In this document: positions 43,896-59,949 of the stretch, piece by piece
Layout of the letters: every line of letters starts with the position of its first letter
Position numbering within the stretch: the stretch's first letter is position 1
Assembly (NCBI RefSeq): GCF_031624495.1
Contig: NZ_JAMQOP010000004.1
Location: 248,001 to 312,000, forward strand
Direction: 5' to 3'
DNA from: Halogeometricum sp. S1BR25-6
GTDB taxonomy: Archaea > Halobacteriota > Halobacteria > Halobacteriales > Haloferacaceae
DNA: 64,000 bases
Position numbers and translations under genes: made by a program
Notes under the pieces: generated by a model
What the model was told of the DNA's origin: nothing
The model's database searches: none
The model's input: the letters and a program-made list of their open reading frames with translations, nothing else

Positions 43896-44660
43896 GTGGC
43901 ACGAACCGAGATCAAATCGACAGCAACCTGTTTCGCCATCATCGAGGCCGTTCGGACCAACGGAGACGCCGGTATCAGCGAACTCGCTCGCGACGTGGGC
44001 GTTTCCAAGAGCGGCGTCTACAAGCACGTCCAGACGCTCTCCCGACTCGGGTACCTCGTCCGTCAGGGGGACAGATACCACCTGAGCCTCCGCTTTCTGA
44101 CGCTCGCGACGCGGGCGCGGGAGCGCCTCCCGTACGACGTCGCCGAACCGGTCGTCGCCCGGTTGGCGGAGACGACCGGACACGCCGCTCACTTCTCCGT
44201 CCGGGAGAACGACCGGGTGGTCTACGTCTGTCGCGCCGACCCGTCCGAGTCGGCCCCCGCGGAGCGAACCGAAGGGGAAATCGCACCGTTGCACGCGACG
44301 TCGGACGGGAAGGCGATACTCGCCAACCTCGACAAGGAGACGCGCGGAGGGATTCTCGACCGGACGGGACTGCCGGCGTGCACCGACAAGACCATCACCG
44401 ACCGGTCGGCGCTGGACCGCGAACTGCAGTCGATACGCGACAGGCGGGCGTCGTTCGACCGCGAGGAGTACGTCCGCGGGTGTCAGTCCGTGGCGTCCCC
44501 GGTCCTCCGGGACGACGGGACGCCCGTCGGAGCGGTGAGCGTGGCGGGGGACGTCCAGCAGATGTCCGGAAAACGGCTGGAAGAGGACGTGGTCGGACTG
44601 ACGATCTCCGCGGCGAAGCGCATCGAAAAGGAAGTGCGAGGACCGTCGTCCGTTTCCTAA
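43896..44660 (+). CDS. IclR family transcriptional regulator 1
   Basis: A 254-residue regulator starting at GTG 43896. The N-terminal winged HTH is ISELARDVGVSKSGVYKHVQ, and the C-terminal effector-binding domain includes PLHATSDGKAIL and ITDRSALDRELQSIRDR. IclR proteins bind small acids or sugars and commonly control catabolic operons. It follows lacZ on the same strand by 107 bp, so control of the galactoside island is the simplest guess. A second IclR gene lies downstream; the two are similar through most of their length and may be an old duplication. Confidence 0.93.
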   Translation: MARTEIKSTATCFAIIEAVRTNGDAGISELARDVGVSKSGVYKHVQTLSRLGYLVRQGDRYHLSLRFLTLATRARERLPYDVAEPVVARLAETTGHAAHFSVRENDRVVYVCRADPSESAPAERTEGEIAPLHATSDGKAILANLDKETRGGILDRTGLPACTDKTITDRSALDRELQSIRDRRASFDREEYVRGCQSVASPVLRDDGTPVGAVSVAGDVQQMSGKRLEEDVVGLTISAAKRIEKEVRGPSSVS

Positions 44661-45144: not shown

Positions 45145-45894
45145 GTGACCGACGACTACCCGGTGAAGGCGACGCACACGAGCGTCCGGGTGCTGCGGGC
45201 GGTGATGGAGGCGCACGGCGTCGGCGTCTCCGAACTCGCGCGCCGGTTGGACCTCTCGAAGAGCGCGGTCCACAAGCACCTGCGGACGCTCACCTCCCTC
45301 GGACTGCTCGCCCGCGAGGGAGACGACTACTACCTCGGACTGGGCTTCTTGGAGTTCGCAGCGGCGGCGCGCGAGCGTTTCCCCGTTTACGGGGTGGCGC
45401 TGCCGGCCGTCGAGCGACTCGCGGAGGTGTCGGGGTGCGTGGCGACACTCGTCGTCTATGAGTCGGGTCGCGGCGTCGTCGTCGCACAGACCTGCGGGGA
45501 CGACGCCCTCGCCCCGCCGGTGAGCGAGGGCGACGCCGTCCCCCTGCACGCGACGGCGGGCGGCAAGACGATACTCGCCTACCGTCCCGCCGAAGAGGTC
45601 GACCGGGTCGTCGACGACGGCCTCGACGCCGTCACCGAGAACACCATCACCGACGGGGACCGACTGCGCCGAGAGCTTCGGTCGATTCGGGACCGGCGGG
45701 TGGCGTTCGACCGCGAGGAGAGCGCGACGGGGTGGCAGAGCGTCGCCTCCCCCGTCACCGACTCCCGGCAGCGCGCCGTCGCCGCCGTGAGCGTCTCCGG
45801 CCCGACCGACCGGATGTCCGGCAAGACGTTGGAGGAGGACATCACCGGCCTCGTCGTCAGCACCGCGAAATCCATCGAGAACGACCTCCTGTGA
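45145..45894 (+). CDS. IclR family transcriptional regulator 2
   Basis: A 249-residue regulator starting at GTG 45145. The winged HTH is VSELARRLDLSKSAVHKHLR and the effector domain has PLHATAGGKTILAY and ITDGDRLRRELRSIRDRR. It closely parallels the IclR protein at 43896, including the SVASPV and MSGKTLEEDITGL endings. The beta-helix protein gene follows on the same strand after an AT-rich gap, so it could control that gene, the galactoside genes, or both. Confidence 0.93.
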   Translation: MTDDYPVKATHTSVRVLRAVMEAHGVGVSELARRLDLSKSAVHKHLRTLTSLGLLAREGDDYYLGLGFLEFAAAARERFPVYGVALPAVERLAEVSGCVATLVVYESGRGVVVAQTCGDDALAPPVSEGDAVPLHATAGGKTILAYRPAEEVDRVVDDGLDAVTENTITDGDRLRRELRSIRDRRVAFDREESATGWQSVASPVTDSRQRAVAAVSVSGPTDRMSGKTLEEDITGLVVSTAKSIENDLL

Positions 45895-47690: not shown

Positions 47691-48440
47691 TCAGAGCACG
47701 AACGGGCCGCGCTGTCGAATCGGGTCGCCGTGCGGGCGACCGGAGACGGCGACGACGCGGAGACCGTCCTCGTTCCGGAGTTCGACCGGTCGCGTCTCGG
47801 CCACCGGGAGCACGTCCCCCGCGCCGAACGCCTCGCCGTCGACCGTTCCCGACCCCGAGACGCCGTAGACGAACCCCGCTCGGTTCTCGGGGGCGTCCCA
47901 CGTTCACGCGTCGTCCACGCGGACGTCGAGGTACTCCATCGGCGTCTCGGGAGAGAGCGGCGACCCCTCGCCGACGACCGTCGTGACCGTCGCTCCGTTC
48001 CGGTCGACCGTCGGGAGTTCCGCCGCCTCGGCGTCCGCGTACGACGCGTCCATCCCTTTCTTCTCCCGAGGGAGGTTCACCCAGAGTTGGAGACCGCTGC
48101 ACCCCGCGCCGTCGGCCGGGAGTTCGGCGTGTTCGATGCCCGACCCCGCGACGACGTGCATCGCACTTCCCGCCCGGGCGACGTGGGAGACGCCGAGGGA
48201 GTCCTCGTGGGCCATCCCGCCGTCGAGCATGTAGGAGACGATTTCGAACCCGCGGTGCGGATGCATCGGGAATCCGGTGTCCGGGTCGATGTAGAACCGC
48301 TCGAACAGGACGAACGGGTCCAGGTTCGAGGGGTAGCCGTTCGTCGGAAACGCGCGGTTCGAGTTCACGCCGGTTCCGTGCCGGACCGTCTCTCCGGCGA
48401 CCGGTCCCGCGGCCGCGCTCTCGGCGGCGTACTCGTCCAT
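47691..48440 (-). pseudogene. Pirin family gene with in-frame TGA
   Basis: The frame from ATG 48438-48440 to TGA 47691-47693 encodes 249 codons of a bicupin pirin. The N-terminal cupin is complete (FERFYIDPDTGFPMHPHRGF, then SYMLDGGMAHEDSLG and GSGIEHAELP, with the metal His/Glu residues). Codon 179 (47904-47906) is TGA. After it the same frame goes on as good pirin sequence (TWDAPENRAGFVYGVSGSG to GRPHGDPIRQRGPFVL). So a single nonsense change, not a frameshift, breaks the gene. Translation would give a 178-residue protein with only the N-terminal cupin, which could still fold. A sequencing error or true inactivation are both possible. Divergent from the Rieske gene. Confidence 0.75.
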
Positions 48441-48560: not shown

Positions 48561-48977
48561 ATGGACGACGGAACGCGGATCGCGAGCGTCGACGACGTGC
48601 CGGCGACCGGGTCGTATCTGTTCACCGCCGAGGACGCCTTCACCAACGAGCGAGAGGTCATCCTCGTGCGGTGCGAGGAGGACCCCGGCGTCGAGGCGTG
48701 GGTGAACAACTGCACGCACGAGGACCAACGACTGGACCGGGGGTCCGGCGCCGCCATGCGGGACGGACAGATAATCTGTCCGCGGCACGGGTCGATGTTC
48801 GACGCCTGTTCGGGCGCCTGCGACAACGGCGAGGCCGCCGGGACGACCCTGCCGGACGTCGACGTCGCGGCGGAGGAGGGGAGCGTCTACCTCGTCGACG
48901 ACAACTACAGCTACCTGCACGAGGGCGGCGTCCAGAGGGACGACGGACCGAGTTCCTCCTCGCACATCGGGTTCTGA
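48561..48977 (+). CDS. Rieske [2Fe-2S] ferredoxin-like protein
   Basis: A 138-residue soluble Rieske protein. The cluster ligands are Cys51 and His53 in NNCTHEDQRL, and Cys73 and His76 in IICPRHGSMFD. There is no membrane segment or catalytic oxygenase domain, so it is a ferredoxin-type electron carrier, as used by ring-hydroxylating dioxygenases, or a redox sensor. The start at 48561 directly precedes the fold; the long upstream frame is a shadow of pirin. A TetR gene follows 53 bp on, and an aromatic-ring dioxygenase gene lies about 1 kb downstream. Confidence 0.92.
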   Translation: MDDGTRIASVDDVPATGSYLFTAEDAFTNEREVILVRCEEDPGVEAWVNNCTHEDQRLDRGSGAAMRDGQIICPRHGSMFDACSGACDNGEAAGTTLPDVDVAAEEGSVYLVDDNYSYLHEGGVQRDDGPSSSSHIGF

Positions 48978-49030: not shown

Positions 49031-49690
49031 ATGGACTCGTCGGCCGAATCCGGTTCTTCTGCGGAGACGAGGGAGGCAATCATGGAGGCGACGTTCCGGG
49101 CGCTCAGCAAGCACGGCTACAACGACCTCCGGATGCGGGACATCGGCGAGGAGTTCGAGATGAGCAGAACGCTCATCCACTACCACTACGACGGCAAGCA
49201 CGACCTCATCTCGGCGTTCTTGGAGTACGTTATCGAGCAGTACGAGGGGAGCGTGCGCGTCGAGGAGAACGCCGACCCGCTGACCGAACTGAACGCACGC
49301 ATCGACCAGTGCCTGTTCGGCCCCGAGTTCGACAGCGACTTCGGGCACTGGGAGCGGATGAAGGTGTACCACGAACTGTTCTCGCAGGCGCAACACAACG
49401 AACGCCACCGCGAGGTGTTCAACGACCACTACGTCGCCATCCGCGACAGCATCACGCAGGTCATCGAACGCGGCATCGAGGAGGGGGCCTTCCGACCGGT
49501 CGACGCCGAGGAGACGGCGCAGTTCATCACCGACGTCATCCACGCCGCCCGCGCGCGGCGCATCTCGCTCGGCCACGAGGACGCCCCCGACCAGGCGCGG
49601 CGGAGCGTCCACCAGTTCGTCCTCGCGTCGCTGCTCGAACCGGAGTTCGTCGTCTCCTCGCGGCAGAAGACGACCGGACCGGCCGAATAG
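49031..49690 (+). CDS. TetR/AcrR family transcriptional regulator
   Basis: A 219-residue repressor. The N-terminal TetR HTH is AIMEATFRALSKHGYNDLRM followed by GEEFEMSRTLIHYHYDGKHD, and the C-terminal 160 residues form the helical ligand domain. The ATG at 49031 follows a TATA-like gtataag about 30 nt upstream. Two similar palindromes lie downstream, one right after the gene and one on the promoter of the dioxygenase, so this protein is the natural candidate to bind them. The inducer is probably a small aromatic or quinone; this is inference. Confidence 0.93.
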   Translation: MDSSAESGSSAETREAIMEATFRALSKHGYNDLRMRDIGEEFEMSRTLIHYHYDGKHDLISAFLEYVIEQYEGSVRVEENADPLTELNARIDQCLFGPEFDSDFGHWERMKVYHELFSQAQHNERHREVFNDHYVAIRDSITQVIERGIEEGAFRPVDAEETAQFITDVIHAARARRISLGHEDAPDQARRSVHQFVLASLLEPEFVVSSRQKTTGPAE

Positions 49691-49750
49691 ACCGGAGTCG
49701 CCCGCTTCCCCCTGAATCGCTCGCGTTCTTCTAGACAGTCTCCGCTGGAC

Positions 49751-49767
49751 TTGACCGAACGGTAAAC
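49751..49767. promoter_or_regulatory. TetR-type operator candidate, site 1
   Basis: TTGACCGAACGGTAAAC is an imperfect palindrome of the form TTnACC-n4-GGTnAA. It matches the reverse complement of site 2 (TTGACCAAGTGGTAAAC) at 14 of 17 positions. It lies 60 bp after the TetR stop codon. Confidence 0.5.
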
Positions 49768-49987
49768 CGCCGCGTTCGCTGACGTCCCGCGCGAGTCGGG
49801 CGACCGGTCCGTCGGACGGGCGAGGTCTCCCGTTCGACGCACCCGTCCGCGGGTACGCGCGGTCGGGTTCCGACGTCGGCGGTCGTCTCGGCCGGTCACG
49901 CACTCGAACCGACAGCTGTCGACGGCGGTTGGACCGGTCTCACAACAAAAACCGTCAACAATCTCCGGTAACGGTAGCGATTTGATA

Positions 49988-50004
49988 GTTTACCACTTGG
50001 TCAA
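49988..50004. promoter_or_regulatory. TetR-type operator candidate, site 2, overlapping the dioxygenase promoter
   Basis: GTTTACCACTTGGTCAA ends 12 nt before the dioxygenase ATG at 50017 and covers the place where the TATA box of a leaderless transcript should be. A repressor bound here would block TBP/TFB. It is the mirror copy of site 1. Confidence 0.6.
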
Positions 50005-50016
50005 ACACGGATTATC

Positions 50017-50964
50017 ATGGGAGAAATTGGCGGCATCCATCACGTAACGGCGTTCGCGAGCGACGCGCAAAAGAACCTAGACTTCTTCAGGAAGGTTCTC
50101 GGACTGCGATTCGTCAAGCGAACCGTCCGTTTCGACATCCCGGAGAAAATATACCACCTCTACTACGGGGACGAGGTGGGGTCGGCGGGGTCGATTGTCA
50201 CGTTCTTCCCCATTGAGGACATGGAACAGGGTTCGATCGGCAAGGGCGGACTCAGCGGGTGCGGGCTGGTCATCCCCGAGGGGTCGGTCGACTACTGGAC
50301 GGACCGCTTCGAGGACCACGGCGTCGAACACGTCGTCACCGACCGCTTCGACGAGACGGCCATCGAGTTCACCGACCCCGACGGCACCCCGTTCGAACTC
50401 GTCACCGGCGAATCCGATATCGAACCGTGGGACGGCGGCGACGTACCGGGCGAACACGCCATCTGCGGCCTGCACAGCGTGACGGTCCACTCGAACGACC
50501 CGGCTGGCACGTTCCGCGCGCTGGAGACGATGGACTGGAAGCGCGTCGGCCGGCAGAACTACCCGCAGGCGGGCGACCGCGTCCGGTATCAAGCACCCGG
50601 CGACGGAACGGGCGCAGAGTTCGTCGACGTGCTCATCCGACCGAACGCGCCGCAGGGCGTCATGGGGACCGGGACGTTCCTCCACGTCGCCTTCGACGCC
50701 GGCGAGAAGTGGGAGCAGAAGGAGTGGAGCAATCGGTTCCGCGAGGAGGGGCTGATAACAACCTCACGGAAGGACCGCGATTACTTCTGGTCGATGTACT
50801 TCACCGAACCCGGCGGAGCGGTGTTCGAGTTCGCGACCACCGGGCCGGGCGTGACGCTCGACGAAGACGTCGACGAACTGGGCGAGAACCTCAAAGTCCC
50901 GGATTGGCTCGACGTCGACATCGACTACATCGACGAGCAACTGCCCGACATTACGGTCGACTGA
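50017..50964 (+). CDS. Ring-cleaving dioxygenase / VOC family protein (MhqO-like)
   Basis: A 315-residue protein made of two vicinal-oxygen-chelate halves. The first starts with GGIHHVTAFASDAQKNLDFF and has FVKRTVRFDIPEKIYHLYYG. The second starts with ICGLHSVTVHSNDPAGTFRA. Metal ligands are His9 (HHVT), a His in the second half and a late Glu (GAVFEFATTGPG). The lengths and motifs match the MhqO/MhqA group that opens hydroquinone-type rings. A palindrome on its promoter suggests repression by the upstream TetR protein. A TatD-like hydrolase follows by 100 bp. Confidence 0.88.
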   Translation: MGEIGGIHHVTAFASDAQKNLDFFRKVLGLRFVKRTVRFDIPEKIYHLYYGDEVGSAGSIVTFFPIEDMEQGSIGKGGLSGCGLVIPEGSVDYWTDRFEDHGVEHVVTDRFDETAIEFTDPDGTPFELVTGESDIEPWDGGDVPGEHAICGLHSVTVHSNDPAGTFRALETMDWKRVGRQNYPQAGDRVRYQAPGDGTGAEFVDVLIRPNAPQGVMGTGTFLHVAFDAGEKWEQKEWSNRFREEGLITTSRKDRDYFWSMYFTEPGGAVFEFATTGPGVTLDEDVDELGENLKVPDWLDVDIDYIDEQLPDITVD

Positions 50965-51064: not shown

Positions 51065-52066
51065 ATGGACACCAACTACCCGACGAAGCGACCGACCGAC
51101 GCAGCGTTCCGGACCGGGGAGGCCCCCGAACCGTTCCCACCGGAATTAACGAACGTCCCGTGGATAGACGTACACAACCACGCGCACACGCTCTCGTGGA
51201 ACGAGCGCGAGCAGTTCGCGCTGAGCGGGTGCCAGGGGATGGTGATGATGGCGGCGGCATACTACTGGACCCCCTACAAGCCGGTGGCCGCCGAAGACGT
51301 GCGGTATCTGTGGGACGACGCGCTCAACCGCCTCCCGCAGATACGGCGCTCGCACGTGTTCGACGCGAAACTCGGCGTCGGCGTCCACACGGGCGCGCGC
51401 GTCGAAGACTCCGAGGAACTGCTCGACGTCATGCCCGAGTACTGCGCGCTGGACGAAGTCGCGGCCGTCGGCGAAATCGGTATCACCGCCTCCCAGCACG
51501 TCTCGGCGTGGCCGCTCGAAGAGCAGAAGGAGGTGATGCGCCGACAGATGGAGATAGCCGCCGACCACGACTTGCCCGCCGTCGTCCACACGCCACCGGA
51601 CCTCGAAAACGTGGACATCCCGTACCGTAAGCGGGGGACCATCCCGGGCTACGAACTCGACATGAGCTACCAGCAGGACCCGGTCCTCGAAGCCGAGGAC
51701 GTCAAGCGGGCGGCGACGGAACTCGACGTCGAACTGGCCGGAGAGGCCGGCCTCGCCGAGGACAAGGTAGTGCTGTCGCACGCCGACCAAGGCATCGCGC
51801 CCTACGTGCTGGAGAACACCGACTGCTATCTGAGCTTCACCGTGAGCTACCCGTGGCTGCTCGGCGTGACGCCCCGCGACGTGGCCGAGGTGGTTCTGGA
51901 GTACGGACCCGAACGCGTCCTCGTGGAGACGGACAGCGCCGGCATCCTCCGCAGCGACGTGTTCTCGTTCAAGCGGACGATATTCGAGCTCTACCGGATG
52001 GGACTCGACGTCGACACCATTCGGCAGGTCGTCTACGAGAACCCTCGACAGGTGCTCGGTGCGTAG
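51065..52066 (+). CDS. TatD-like metal-dependent amidohydrolase-superfamily protein
   Basis: A 333-residue TIM-barrel metal hydrolase. The first metal motif is IDVHNHAHTLSW. AAVGEIGI carries the bridging Glu, VVHTPPDLE and VLSHADQG supply the later His ligands, and ERVLVETDSAG the final Asp. The tail ENPRQVLGA is TatD-like. Substrate is unknown. TatD relatives include nucleases, while others hydrolyse lactones or ring-cleavage products. Standing directly after the ring-cleaving dioxygenase, it might act on the opened-ring product, which is inference. Confidence 0.82.
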   Translation: MDTNYPTKRPTDAAFRTGEAPEPFPPELTNVPWIDVHNHAHTLSWNEREQFALSGCQGMVMMAAAYYWTPYKPVAAEDVRYLWDDALNRLPQIRRSHVFDAKLGVGVHTGARVEDSEELLDVMPEYCALDEVAAVGEIGITASQHVSAWPLEEQKEVMRRQMEIAADHDLPAVVHTPPDLENVDIPYRKRGTIPGYELDMSYQQDPVLEAEDVKRAATELDVELAGEAGLAEDKVVLSHADQGIAPYVLENTDCYLSFTVSYPWLLGVTPRDVAEVVLEYGPERVLVETDSAGILRSDVFSFKRTIFELYRMGLDVDTIRQVVYENPRQVLGA

Positions 52067-55979: not shown

Positions 55980-58900
55980 TCAGTCGCTCTCGCCGTTTTC
56001 GGTCTCCGTTTCGCTTTCGTCGCCGCTCTCGCTTCCATCGAGCGAGACGTACGGCAGCGTCGCTCTCTCCTCCGAGGAGTACGACAGCGCCGCCGACTGG
56101 TCGACGTCGGCGTCCGTGACGAGGTCCATCACCAGCGGCGCCTGTTCGACGGCGCCGGCCGTCGCACCGCCGAAGACGTAGCCCTCGGCCGTCTCCGCGA
56201 CCGGTCGGAGCGACCCTCTGTCCTCCGATTGGACCATCGCCACGACTTCCAACTCGGCCGCGTCGACGCCGTCGAAGGCGTCTCGCGGGAGCGTGAGCGT
56301 GACCGTCCCCGCCTCGGCGTCGACGCTCTCGGCCGGCGTCACGGCGCTCCCGTCGTCGGACGTCAGGGGCGTCCCGGAGGCGTCGACGACGCTCTTCGTG
56401 AAGCCGCTTATCTCCACTCGGTAGTGCCACGGCGCCTCGAACGTCGCGTTCGCGCCGAGGTCGTCGAGGCTGTCCGTCCGCCCGCCGTCGGCGCTCGGGT
56501 CGCGGACCCAGAGCACGAACATCTGCGGGGAGAACCCGCGGGAACTCCCGAAGGCGTTGTACAGGTTCTCGACCGCGAAGGTGAACTGGTACGCGTCGGA
56601 GGTCCGCGAAACGACGAACGACCGCAGGTCGAACGCCCCGTCCTCGAACGCCTCGTTCGTGGGGTAGACGTACTCGCCGGGGCCGACGTCGTCGCCCGGC
56701 GGGTCCGCGAAGGACGCCACCTCGACGGGCGGTTTCACCGTCACCGTCCGCCGCGCGAGCACGTTTCCGTCGGGCGTTCGGACGGCCACGTCGTACGTCC
56801 CCGCGTCGTCGATGGTGAACGAAAACGCGTACGACTGCTCGGAGGAGTTCGGCGGGAAGCGGACGTTCGAGGTAGACGCCACCTCGCCGTCGACGACCAC
56901 CTCGACCGTCGTTCCGCCGACGTAGTCGCCCGCGTTCGACCCGGTGGCGGTGACGAACGTCGACTCGACGAACGTCTCCGGGGCAATGGTGACGTCCACG
57001 TCCTGTTCGGGTCGTTCGTACCGCGGGAGGTCGCCGGCCTCGCCGTCCTCCGGCGGTCGCAGTCGGAGCGCGGTTCCCCCGGATTCGACCATCGACGCGA
57101 GCACCGTCGCGCTCGGGTCCACGAGGAACTCGTCGACGCGGACGTCGTCTAGATTCGAGTCGTAGGCGGCGTCCGCGGCGTCTGAGTACATCTCCGCGAC
57201 GTACTTCGGGCCGCGCGGCGCGCCGTTCGAGTTTCCGTTCCCCCTATTCCCCGGTGCGTCCCCGCTCTTGCCGGGCGCATCACCGCTTTCGCCGGGCGCG
57301 AGGAAGTCCAGCGGCACGTCCAGCGCGCGTCCGTCGGACCCGGTCATCGCGCCGACGTACCACTCCTCGCCCTTCCGTCGGGCCGTGAGCGTGTACTCGC
57401 CTATCTCGGAGTCGAGCACCGTCGTGTCGTCCCATCCGGCGGCGGGTACGTCCTCGACGAACTCGAACTCGGGCACCGTCGGGCCGAGCGTCGGGTCCGC
57501 CTCGGGCGTCGGCATCGCCGCCCCGGACTCGGTGACGGCGACGGCGTCGAGGTTGAACCCGCCGGTGTCGTCCTCGCCGAGCGTCACGGAGAGGTCGCTC
57601 TCGCCCTCGTCGAACGAGAGCGCCGCCGTCGTCGTCGCCCACTCGTCCCAGTACGCCGTGGGCGGAAGCGTCACCCGCGTCGAGGAGTCGCCGGCGACGA
57701 CGGTGGCCGTCCGCGGCGTGTCGGCGGCGACGGCGTTCTCCTCAGCGTCGCTGGCGTAGCGGAGGTGCACGTCGTACTCGCCCGCCGCCGGAACGTCTTC
57801 GACGGTCCACGAGACGCTCGCTCCCGAGTCGGCCGCGTTGGGGTCGAAGGGGACGTACCGACCGCCCTGCGCGTTCGCCCACCGGGCGGCGCGCGAGAGG
57901 CCGTCTCGGTCGCCGAACTCCGCCTGCGCCACGTCGCCGACGTCGCCGGACTGCGTCCGGCGGGCAGCCGAGCTTTGCTCGGCGACGCCGAGCGTCGCGT
58001 CCTGCTCCGCGAGGTAGGAACTCGGCAGGTCCGCGACCATCTGCAGACCGCTGAGGTACGTCGGGTACATCGCCAGTTGCTTCGCGCGCGTCGTCTCGAT
58101 GCCGCCGGACCCCGAGTCCATGTCGAAGATGCCGGGCGTGTACTCGACGGGGCCGCCGAGCATCCGCGTGAACGGGAACGTGACGTGGTGGTCGGGGCTG
58201 ACGTAGCCGAACGAGTCGTACTCCTGTCCGAGCACCCCCTCGCGGGTCATCACGTTCGGATACGTCCGCCGCTCGCCGGTCGGTTTGATGGGTTCGTGCA
58301 CCTCCAGCATCTGCCGGTGTTTCGCCGCCTCGCGGTAGACGAGGTGGTGGTGATTCACCAGCGGTTGGCAGTGGTGGTTGTACGTCGTGCCGTCGATGGT
58401 GACGCCCGAATCGGCGACGTAGCCCGTCTTTATCGAGCGGATACCCTTCTCCTCGTAGTCGGCGAACGGGTTCGGCGAGTTCTCCAACTGCGACTCGTAG
58501 TTGGAGACGTTCCCCGCCGTCTCGTTGTGCGCGGTCATCTCCACCGGCGGGTCGAGGTTCAGGCCGTAGTCGGTCACCGCCTGCCAGTCGAAGTCCGGGT
58601 ACGAGTCGTCGAAGTCCATCGTGCTCCCCTCGCCGGGGTAGCTATCCCACCCTTCGTTCCACCCCTCCACGAGGACGCTCCGGATGCCGTGCTCGCTTGC
58701 GAAGTCCATGTAGCGCTTCATCCGGCCGGTCTGCGCGCCGTGGTTGCCCGTCTCCGGACCCTGATACTCCCAGTCCGCGCGGCCCGTGATCATCAGCCAC
58801 CAGATGCCGACGAACTTCCCCGGTTCGATCCAGTCGGTGCCTTTCGGGAACAACTCGGGGTCGAACGGTTCGTTCAGGTTGAGGACGAGGTTCGACTCCA

Positions 58901-59792
58901 CGAGTTCGCCCGGCCGGGAGGCGAGTTGCACCGTCCGCCACGGCGTCCGGTGGGGTGCGGAGGCGGTCACCTTCGTCCCGTCGGGGAGTGGTGCGAGGAC
59001 GGACTCGAACGTCGTTCCGCCGCCGTTGGCGGTCGGTTCGACGGCCATCGCCGCGTAGTCGACGAGGTTCGCCTCGTGGACGCTGAGGTAGAGGTCCTCG
59101 GACGCTTTCATCGTCAGCGGCGTGTGCGCCCCGCCGAACGAACTCAGCTCTCCGATGTCGCTCAGCGGCGTCTCCTCGTAGGCGTACTCGTAGCTGTTGA
59201 AGTTGTTCTCGATCCACCAGGACGTGTGGTCGTCCGCGAAGGCGAACTCGGTTCGCTCGGCGGCGATGGCGAAGTCGCCGAACCCGCTCTCGGCGGGGAA
59301 CACGTACCGAAAGCCCACACCGTCGTCGAACGCGCGCAGTTCGAGCGTCAGCGATCGGTTCGGTTCTGCGGTCTCTCGGAGTCCGATTCGGAGTTGCTCG
59401 TATCGCTCCGGTATCTCGTCGTACTGGTCCCACACCGGCGTCCACCGCTCGTCGACGCTGGAACGCTCCGTGCCCGTCACCTCGACGCCCTCCCTGAACG
59501 GCGCCTGGTCTTCGAACTCGAATCCGAGCGTCGACTCCTCGACGGCCTTCGTCCCCTCGCGCGACACCGAGTAACTCGGGACGCCGTCCGTCACGTCCAC
59601 GGAAATCTCGACGGACCCGTCGGGCGAGGCGAGCGTCTGGCCGGGTTCGTCGTCCCCCTCCTCCACCTGCGCCGCCGCCGACTCGGAGACGCTCACCGAG
59701 AACGCGGAGGCCGCCGCCAGCGACGCGATGCCGCCGACGAACTCGCGTCTGCGCAGGTCTGACGACGAACGATTATTTAATTCATCAAACAT
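55980..59792 (-). CDS. Tat-exported multidomain GH97 alpha-glycosidase
   Basis: A 1270-residue secreted glycosidase. The Tat signal is LRRREFVGGIASLAAASAFS. The GH97 N-domain (roughly 50-300) is followed by the barrel (300-640) with GKFVGIWWLMITG, VEGWNEGWDSYP and the Glu-bearing VEMTAHNETAG. A CBM35/6-like module (about 655-790) is inserted before the GH97 C-domain (EIGEYTLTARRKGEEWYVGA). A Gly/Asp linker interrupts that domain. Then come a CARDB-like beta-sandwich (TGSNAGDYVGGTTVEVVVDG) and a glucodextranase-type C-terminal module (FSPQMFVLWVRDPS). GH97 enzymes are alpha-glucosidases or alpha-galactosidases; HNETAG resembles the SusB-like inverting type. Most are 650-700 residues. The ATG at 59792 precedes the Tat motif. 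Confidence 0.92.
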   Translation of the reverse strand: MFDELNNRSSSDLRRREFVGGIASLAAASAFSVSVSESAAAQVEEGDDEPGQTLASPDGSVEISVDVTDGVPSYSVSREGTKAVEESTLGFEFEDQAPFREGVEVTGTERSSVDERWTPVWDQYDEIPERYEQLRIGLRETAEPNRSLTLELRAFDDGVGFRYVFPAESGFGDFAIAAERTEFAFADDHTSWWIENNFNSYEYAYEETPLSDIGELSSFGGAHTPLTMKASEDLYLSVHEANLVDYAAMAVEPTANGGGTTFESVLAPLPDGTKVTASAPHRTPWRTVQLASRPGELVESNLVLNLNEPFDPELFPKGTDWIEPGKFVGIWWLMITGRADWEYQGPETGNHGAQTGRMKRYMDFASEHGIRSVLVEGWNEGWDSYPGEGSTMDFDDSYPDFDWQAVTDYGLNLDPPVEMTAHNETAGNVSNYESQLENSPNPFADYEEKGIRSIKTGYVADSGVTIDGTTYNHHCQPLVNHHHLVYREAAKHRQMLEVHEPIKPTGERRTYPNVMTREGVLGQEYDSFGYVSPDHHVTFPFTRMLGGPVEYTPGIFDMDSGSGGIETTRAKQLAMYPTYLSGLQMVADLPSSYLAEQDATLGVAEQSSAARRTQSGDVGDVAQAEFGDRDGLSRAARWANAQGGRYVPFDPNAADSGASVSWTVEDVPAAGEYDVHLRYASDAEENAVAADTPRTATVVAGDSSTRVTLPPTAYWDEWATTTAALSFDEGESDLSVTLGEDDTGGFNLDAVAVTESGAAMPTPEADPTLGPTVPEFEFVEDVPAAGWDDTTVLDSEIGEYTLTARRKGEEWYVGAMTGSDGRALDVPLDFLAPGESGDAPGKSGDAPGNRGNGNSNGAPRGPKYVAEMYSDAADAAYDSNLDDVRVDEFLVDPSATVLASMVESGGTALRLRPPEDGEAGDLPRYERPEQDVDVTIAPETFVESTFVTATGSNAGDYVGGTTVEVVVDGEVASTSNVRFPPNSSEQSYAFSFTIDDAGTYDVAVRTPDGNVLARRTVTVKPPVEVASFADPPGDDVGPGEYVYPTNEAFEDGAFDLRSFVVSRTSDAYQFTFAVENLYNAFGSSRGFSPQMFVLWVRDPSADGGRTDSLDDLGANATFEAPWHYRVEISGFTKSVVDASGTPLTSDDGSAVTPAESVDAEAGTVTLTLPRDAFDGVDAAELEVVAMVQSEDRGSLRPVAETAEGYVFGGATAGAVEQAPLVMDLVTDADVDQSAALSYSSEERATLPYVSLDGSESGDESETETENGESD

Positions 59793-59949
59793 CACGAAAT
59801 CCGTCGGATACGATTGTGAAAAACCTGGTGGCTGTCTGACCGGTTCGGCCGACCGCAGGCGACCGAGAACCGCGCGACGGCTCACGAATCGAAGACAGTC
59901 GTCGCGTCCGGCAACTACCCTTAAGCTAGCGAGGCGTCAACGAAGGAGC

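Follow-up and report, generated by a model that had tools for sequence, protein, structure and literature searches.

Ring-cleaving dioxygenases are known targets of the quinone regulons of Bacillus and Staphylococcus, in which regulators of the MarR and MarR/DUF24 types (MhqR, YodB, and QsrR) control MhqO, MhqE, MhqA, and CatE; in S. aureus the gene for the repressor is part of the operon that it controls, and the operator covers the start of transcription (PMC6798810). The haloarchaeal system considered here has the same kind of dioxygenase target. In contrast to MhqR, a MarR-type protein with a 9-9 bp inverted repeat, its regulator is of the TetR type and is associated with the palindrome TTKACC-N4-GGTMAA. 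Its partner genes (fumarylacetoacetate-hydrolase [FAH] family, amidohydrolase, and pirin genes) also differ from those of the MhqR regulons, and its promoter is archaeal.

Among archaeal TetR proteins, FadRSa of Sulfolobus acidocaldarius has a 16-bp dyad motif with only four genomic sites, and its local gene cluster is its regulon (PMC6449355). An archaeal TetR protein, a 16-bp dyad motif, and a local cluster are also found here. FadRSa differs in its ligand, acyl-CoA, and in its targets, fatty-acid genes. In E. coli, RutR has a palindromic box of about 16 bp (PMC10891134). RutR differs in being a bacterial regulator of pyrimidine genes, and RutR identity was rejected for the haloarchaeal TetR, which scores far below the NCBIfam equivalog cut-offs (25.2 versus 368 bits and 21.4 versus 230 bits). 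The RutR box, which we take to be TTGACCA-NN-TGGTCAA, is nearly identical to several of the haloarchaeal sites.

A further point of comparison is OxsR, a TrmB-type thiol regulator of oxidative stress in Haloferax volcanii, for which a conserved cysteine (C24) is needed for function and the position of the motif relative to TATA matters (PMC9426492). The TetR protein described below likewise has one conserved cysteine, C94, usually its sole one; OxsR differs in its DNA-binding family and in its motif, which is CG-rich.

To our knowledge, operator and regulon have been established for few of the TetR regulators of archaea. Systems of this kind are known as such; among the openly accessible papers listed, judged by title and the opening of the abstract, none describes this regulator or a TetR regulon of haloarchaea based on this motif. 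The locus studied here joins a motif with a set of target families, a promoter geometry, and a candidate sensor residue in a proposed circuit that is directly testable in culturable haloarchaea.

The regulator, the dioxygenase, and the two palindromes

The window, that is, the whole stretch of 64,000 nucleotides analysed, comes from Halogeometricum sp. S1BR25-6; Halogeometricum pallidum is the closest named relative for the dioxygenase (93%). The features of the locus are as follows.

48561–48977, + strand: gene for a Rieske [2Fe-2S] protein, upstream of tetR (Pfam Rieske, 1.6e-9); no motif site found there
49031–49690, + strand: tetR, encoding a 219-aa TetR-family regulator (Pfam TetR_N, 5.3e-9; TetR_C_6, 3.9e-9)
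49751–49766, + strand: site 1, TTGACCGAACGGTAAA, upstream (distal) predicted operator with no recognisable core promoter
49972–49988, + strand: predicted dioxygenase core promoter, from by-eye comparison with relatives; BRE-like CGGTAG at 49972–49977 and TATA-like ATTTGATAG at 49980–49988
49989–50004, + strand: site 2, TTTACCACTTGGTCAA, promoter-proximal predicted operator, its first base 28 bp ahead of that of the ATG
50017–50964, + strand: dioxygenase, two-domain VOC ring-cleaving enzyme of the MhqO/PcpA type (Pfam Glyoxalase, 4.4e-15)
51065–52066, + strand: amidohydrolase (TatD / Amidohydro_2), probable downstream gene of the dioxygenase unit; it follows the dioxygenase in most dioxygenase-bearing relatives

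The original prediction had proposed two matching palindromes flanking the gap before a ring-cleaving dioxygenase, with a TetR gene directly upstream. Both 17-mers are where it placed them, TTGACCGAACGGTAAAC from 49751 and GTTTACCACTTGGTCAA at 49988–50004, and they agree at 14 of 17 positions when the second is reverse-complemented. The palindromic TTnACC-n4-GGTnAA form also holds, the exact 16-mers being 49751–49766 and 49989–50004, 238 bp apart from start to start.

The gene at 49031–49690 is indeed that of a TetR protein. Its N-terminal part scores 36.2 bits against the TetR helix-turn-helix model PF00440 (cut-off 24) and its C-terminal part 37.1 bits against the effector/dimer domain PF13977 (cut-off 27); on comparative grounds, it also has the palindromic predicted operator near its own or the neighbouring gene that is looked for in this family. 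A MarR-type identity like that of MhqR or YodB was rejected, only TetR-type Pfam domains being reported for the protein, and so was BetI (NCBIfam equivalog scores of 46.6 versus a cut-off of 118 and 45.3 versus 201.3 bits). The closest solved relative by sequence is PDB 3crj, named 'Transcription regulator' (E 2.3e-31), which, unlike the protein here, has neither the cysteine nor R46 at the aligned positions. An AlphaFold model of the regulator built on a 3-row alignment was poor (mean pLDDT 54.5).

Five residues of the DNA-binding part, R36, R46, I49, H50, and Y51, are invariant in 83 of 83 orthologues, R46 lying in the recognition helix, as a constant motif would predict. C94 is likewise invariant (83/83) and is the sole cysteine in 79 of the 83, some of these proteins having been cut to the matched range; at 12 paralogue loci (L025–L036) in five genomes of the genus, neither R46 nor a cysteine occupies the aligned position. 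Haloarchaeal proteins are poor in cysteine, and an invariant one is therefore a lead for a thiol or electrophile switch. Together with the MhqO/PcpA-type target, this makes such a role for C94 plausible.

For the dioxygenase, the predicted identity is supported. Its best solved relative is B. subtilis MhqO (PDB 3oaj, E 3.2e-56 over residues 6–298), followed over residues 4–309 by PDB 4huz, 2,6-dichloro-p-hydroquinone 1,2-dioxygenase (E 2e-43), so that the two-domain VOC similarity spans the full length. By hand count, the counterparts of H9 and H223 in 4huz are H11 and H227, and E271 falls opposite the Glu of its MFE stretch; by analogy with PcpA, these three are the putative Fe ligands (2-His-1-Glu).

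Motif specificity and co-occurrence with the TetR orthologue

With up to two mismatches, TTNACC-N4-GGTNAA is not enriched in the window: 13 matches were counted where 9.9 were expected, and 22 of 100 shuffled sequences had at least as many. The argument is therefore built on matches that are exact or comparative. The only exact matches to the loose form in the window are sites 1 and 2. Across the 4.5-Mb genome, this exact form occurs four times, as does a reversed control, and it is thus not significant genome-wide. The narrower TTKACC-N4-GGTMAA occurs three times versus none for the control, and the refined TTKACC-RNNY-GGTMAA twice versus none, both times at the tetR–dioxygenase gap; the third TTKACC match lies inside a mechanical 120-aa reading frame and lacks the central pyrimidine.

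We compared 83 tetR loci, each extending about 2.8 kb to either side of the gene: 80 of the 121 relatives with a TetR match (41 were left out), the window, and two congeners. An earlier motif scan had covered 67 loci (L038–L104) that partly overlap these. The 83 loci hold 70 exact TTKACC-N4-GGTMAA sites. An exact site is present in 56 loci and a site within one mismatch in 77; the remaining six lack even a one-mismatch match to the unrefined form. Both the half-sites and the spacer are specific: among 180 half-site permutations only two others scored high (52 and 51), both of which also accept TTTACC, with the rest at two or fewer, and spacers from 0 to 10 other than 4 gave 0–2 sites. In all 70 exact sites the base following the left half is a purine and the one preceding the right half a pyrimidine, a refinement derived from the same loci that it then scores.

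The refined motif also tracks the regulator across genomes. In 392 Halobacteriales genomes, it was found in 94 of 122 with a TetR orthologue (E up to 1e-55, weaker relatives counting as absent) versus 12 of 270 without one; 28 of the 122 thus have no exact refined site. Per genome, the unrefined motif averaged 1.52 versus 0.21, and the reversed control 0.72 versus 0.67. Because the genomes are related, p-values overstate independence. Relatedness is less of a problem for comparisons inside single genera, and in three of these the refined motif was found in 18/22 versus 0/10, 4/4 versus 0/15, and 15/17 versus 0/9 genomes with and without the orthologue. Seven loose-motif matches in one genome (G367) were dropped from the refined count: they are a single repeated sequence, TTGACCTCGAGGTCAA, without the R..Y centre. 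The seven copies lie on different contigs and are probably part of a repeated element that mimics the loose motif.

Promoter positions and candidate target genes

In relatives, the dioxygenase promoter reads, by eye, CGGTAG, then CTATTTATAG, then the predicted operator, then the ATG, and the element that we compared with TATA is CGGTAGCTATTTATAG or similar. The corresponding ATTTGATAG of the window is weak, with site 2 directly 3' of it, and the core promoter assignment at 49972–49988 is a by-analogy prediction. On this alignment, site 2 probably does not overlap the TATA element, as had been proposed, but follows it directly. A position between the TATA-like element and the start suits a repressor, which suggests that the dioxygenase would be repressed from site 2. 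The whole interval 49946–50016 is highly conserved among three congeners (62 of 71 columns) and beyond the BRE and TATA could hold a site for a further regulator.

Thirty dioxygenase loci (E up to 1e-120) were then set side by side: 13 beside a tetR gene, 16 without one, and L084, from a 71%-complete genome in which no TetR was found. All 13 dioxygenases beside tetR have a site within one mismatch, 18–30 bp before the ATG, and L084 has one as well. None of the 16 loci lacking tetR in the 1.5 kb read around them has a site, the best sequences in 120 bp showing 3–6 mismatches. Most of these 16 dioxygenases are more distant (62–69% identity), the exception being L080 at 83%, which belongs to the same genus as G342, a genome whose locus has both sites. 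In the L080 genome no TetR orthologue was found at E 1e-55, and its promoter keeps the TATA-like stretch with a non-matching, possibly degraded sequence at the operator position.

Taken together, the co-occurrence of the motif with the TetR orthologue, the fixed promoter positions, and the lack of a site before dioxygenases without a neighbouring tetR strongly support the operator reading of the original prediction. Both palindromes are very probably operators of the adjacent TetR regulator, whose regulon, judged from these genome comparisons, appears to be conserved in many Halobacteriales.

Candidate targets were counted by family; a gene scored when the 125 bp preceding its predicted start held a site with no more than one mismatch. 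These are raw counts, with no chance rate alongside. Gene starts came from a home-made score, and distances of −8, −9, and −69 to −123 bp probably reflect a misplaced start or the wrong context; each family was named from one representative in Pfam, that of doxX falling just under the cut-off.

Dioxygenase: site in 14 of 14 loci
Amidohydrolase-1: site in 28 of 37 loci, 21 at exactly −50
FAD-dependent oxidoreductase: site in 16 of 20 loci, 12 at −47/−48
Aldehyde dehydrogenase: site in 3 of 3 loci
Pirin: site in 10 of 22 loci, only 6 of the 10 at −27/−28
CoA-transferase: site in 9 of 17 loci, 2 at −29
doxX: site in 3 of 14 loci

Rieske genes (a site in only 1 of 8 loci, L105) and superoxide dismutase genes (0 of 6) were rejected as general targets. 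Of 11 refined sites away from tetR that were read in genomes with the orthologue, 9 front pirin, aldehyde dehydrogenase, CoA-transferase, or FAD-oxidoreductase genes, as identified by eye from translations, one of the nine lying only 3 kb from tetR. Twenty-two further loci were taken, several of them beside tetR; of the 13 read, nine have a site before a member of a regulon family and four do not (L188, L190, L191, and L200). The system may govern how aromatic or quinone-like compounds are broken down or detoxified. With FAH-like, aldehyde dehydrogenase, and CoA-transferase genes among its partners, its function could be to degrade a (hydro)quinone or a related ring compound, and the target families make a quinone or catechol signal plausible.

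Proposed mechanism and the role of site 1

From the sites, their conservation, their link to the TetR orthologue, and the promoter geometry, all of which can be read from the DNA, we infer binding, repression, release by an inducer, a role for Cys94, and a history and role for site 1. The explanation that we consider likely as a whole is as follows. Each palindrome would be bound by a TetR dimer. The dimer at site 2, placed downstream of the TATA-like element and ahead of the start codon, would keep RNA polymerase from assembling or escaping, and the MhqO/PcpA-type dioxygenase would be repressed together with the amidohydrolase that follows it. Release would come from an inducer, most likely an aromatic compound, a quinone, or another electrophile, acting on the effector pocket or on Cys94. 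Site 1 would be the former operator of an FAH promoter, retained after the gene was lost, and probably either contributes to repression at a distance or stops transcription running on from tetR. If this is true, haloarchaea gain a defined regulator of aromatic or quinone breakdown. More tentatively, and with well under an even chance in our estimate, the family may form a widespread Halobacteriales TetR regulon with an invariant-Cys electrophile (quinone) sensor, an archaeal counterpart, from a different protein family, of the bacterial MhqR/YodB/QsrR control of ring-cleaving dioxygenases; in it, an operator whose promoter and gene have disappeared would serve for control at a distance.

The proposed history of site 1 comes from relatives. 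In G211 and G106, tetR and the dioxygenase are separated by an FAH-family gene (representative FAA_hydrolase, 9.5e-73), and a site is found between tetR and this gene; G081 and G097 show the same arrangement with TTTACC polarity. In the window, G002, G003, G330, G342, and G287, the gap has no FAH gene and site 1 is kept, 195–248 bp before site 2. In L112 and L113, a 21-codon reading frame lies between site 1 and FAH, starting about 45 bp past the centre of the operator and ending in a stop that overlaps the start codon of FAH; it could be a leader peptide or an alternative start. In the TetR tree, FAH-bearing lineages fall between two FAH-less groups (node supports 0.78–0.91), so two FAH losses with two site retentions are the simplest reading; gene transfer or a later FAH insertion is possible instead.

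Site 1 might be nothing but a relic of the lost FAH promoter, with site 2 alone mattering and no cooperation, which we regard as somewhat unlikely. Its position after tetR is that of the site before FAH in G211 and G106, its polarity (TTGACC..GGTAAA) is the same as there, as in 8 of 10 co-directional loci, and neither tblastn nor blastn found an FAH remnant in the gap between the sites of the window. A promoter at site 1 was rejected for want of a recognisable TATA-like element; by eye there is none in the window, nor in the other FAH-less loci except for an AT-rich stretch in G287, and the function of site 1 is for this reason uncertain. Against a relic, no other 16-column window of 49691–49915 is as well conserved among three congeneric genomes as site 1, with 14 of its 16 columns invariant versus 82 of 209 around it (Fisher 1.8e-4), and site 1 recurs in G330, G342, and G287, which FAH-bearing lineages separate from the window's group. 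A mere relic should have decayed, so this conservation argues that site 1 is something more. As a conserved predicted operator at which no promoter is visible, it has a role that is open to experiment.

One such role, to which we give a lower chance again, would be a roadblock, TetR bound at site 1 stopping read-through from tetR into the co-directional dioxygenase. The tetR stop and site 1 are 60 bp apart, and a gap site without FAH is found only where the two genes are co-directional. Five convergent loci (G033, G018, G061, G069, and G187) have no gap site, but their short gap leaves little room for one anyway.

Comparably doubtful is that TetR is a dual regulator, repressing where its site is 3' of TATA (dioxygenase, pirin) and activating where it is 5' (FAD-oxidoreductase). 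Both geometries occur, with TATA placed by eye. FAD-oxidoreductase promoters have one site 5' of TATA, and many amidohydrolase-1 promoters have two, an operator upstream of the TATA-like stretch being followed after 19 bp by a weaker one (17 of 83 loci contain a pair with this 19-bp spacing); with sites 5' of or on both sides of TATA, TetR might activate some targets. Activation is also conceivable because OxsR activates from motifs 5' of TATA/BRE and represses from 3' ones in Haloferax (PMC9426492). TetR proteins are usually repressors, however, and a 5' site overlapping the BRE can also repress by excluding TFB.

The original prediction had suggested looping across about 237 bp, and cooperation of the two sites through a DNA loop or a TetR tetramer appears improbable. 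Both sites are indeed present in all six loci in which tetR is followed by a co-directional dioxygenase without FAH, although the dioxygenase of G287 is only a fragment and site 2 of G330 has one mismatch. Their spacings correspond to fractional turns of 0.38–0.67 at 10.5 bp per turn (0.60–0.88 at 10.4; 0.17–0.45 at 10.6), values that shift with the assumed repeat and give no clear whole-turn phasing, and many loci of the family have a single site. The suggestion thus finds no specific support, site 1 matching the FAH operator position and the spacings not being whole turns at 10.5 bp.

That the palindromes are chance occurrences or sites of another regulator, as the lack of enrichment of the loose motif in its own genome (4 versus 4) might suggest, is very hard to reconcile with the co-occurrence with TetR, the half-site and spacer specificity, the fixed promoter positions, the dioxygenase comparison, and the sites away from tetR.

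Several minor features of the locus and its surroundings were also observed. The dioxygenase fragment of G287 (L111) matches residues 3–121 only. On the − strand at 47691–48440, the pirin gene of the window has an in-frame stop after codon 178, whereas the pirins of two congeners are 249 aa long and align over their full length; it is probably a pseudogene or the result of a sequencing error. At the locus L045 of the congener G002, a superoxide dismutase gene lies between the pirin and Rieske genes; none is predicted in the window. Two IclR-family regulators, at 43896–44660 and 45145–45894, lie close together on one strand, and the − strand at 55980–59885 encodes a 1301-aa glycoside hydrolase of family GH97 whose C-terminal module is of the glucodextranase type.
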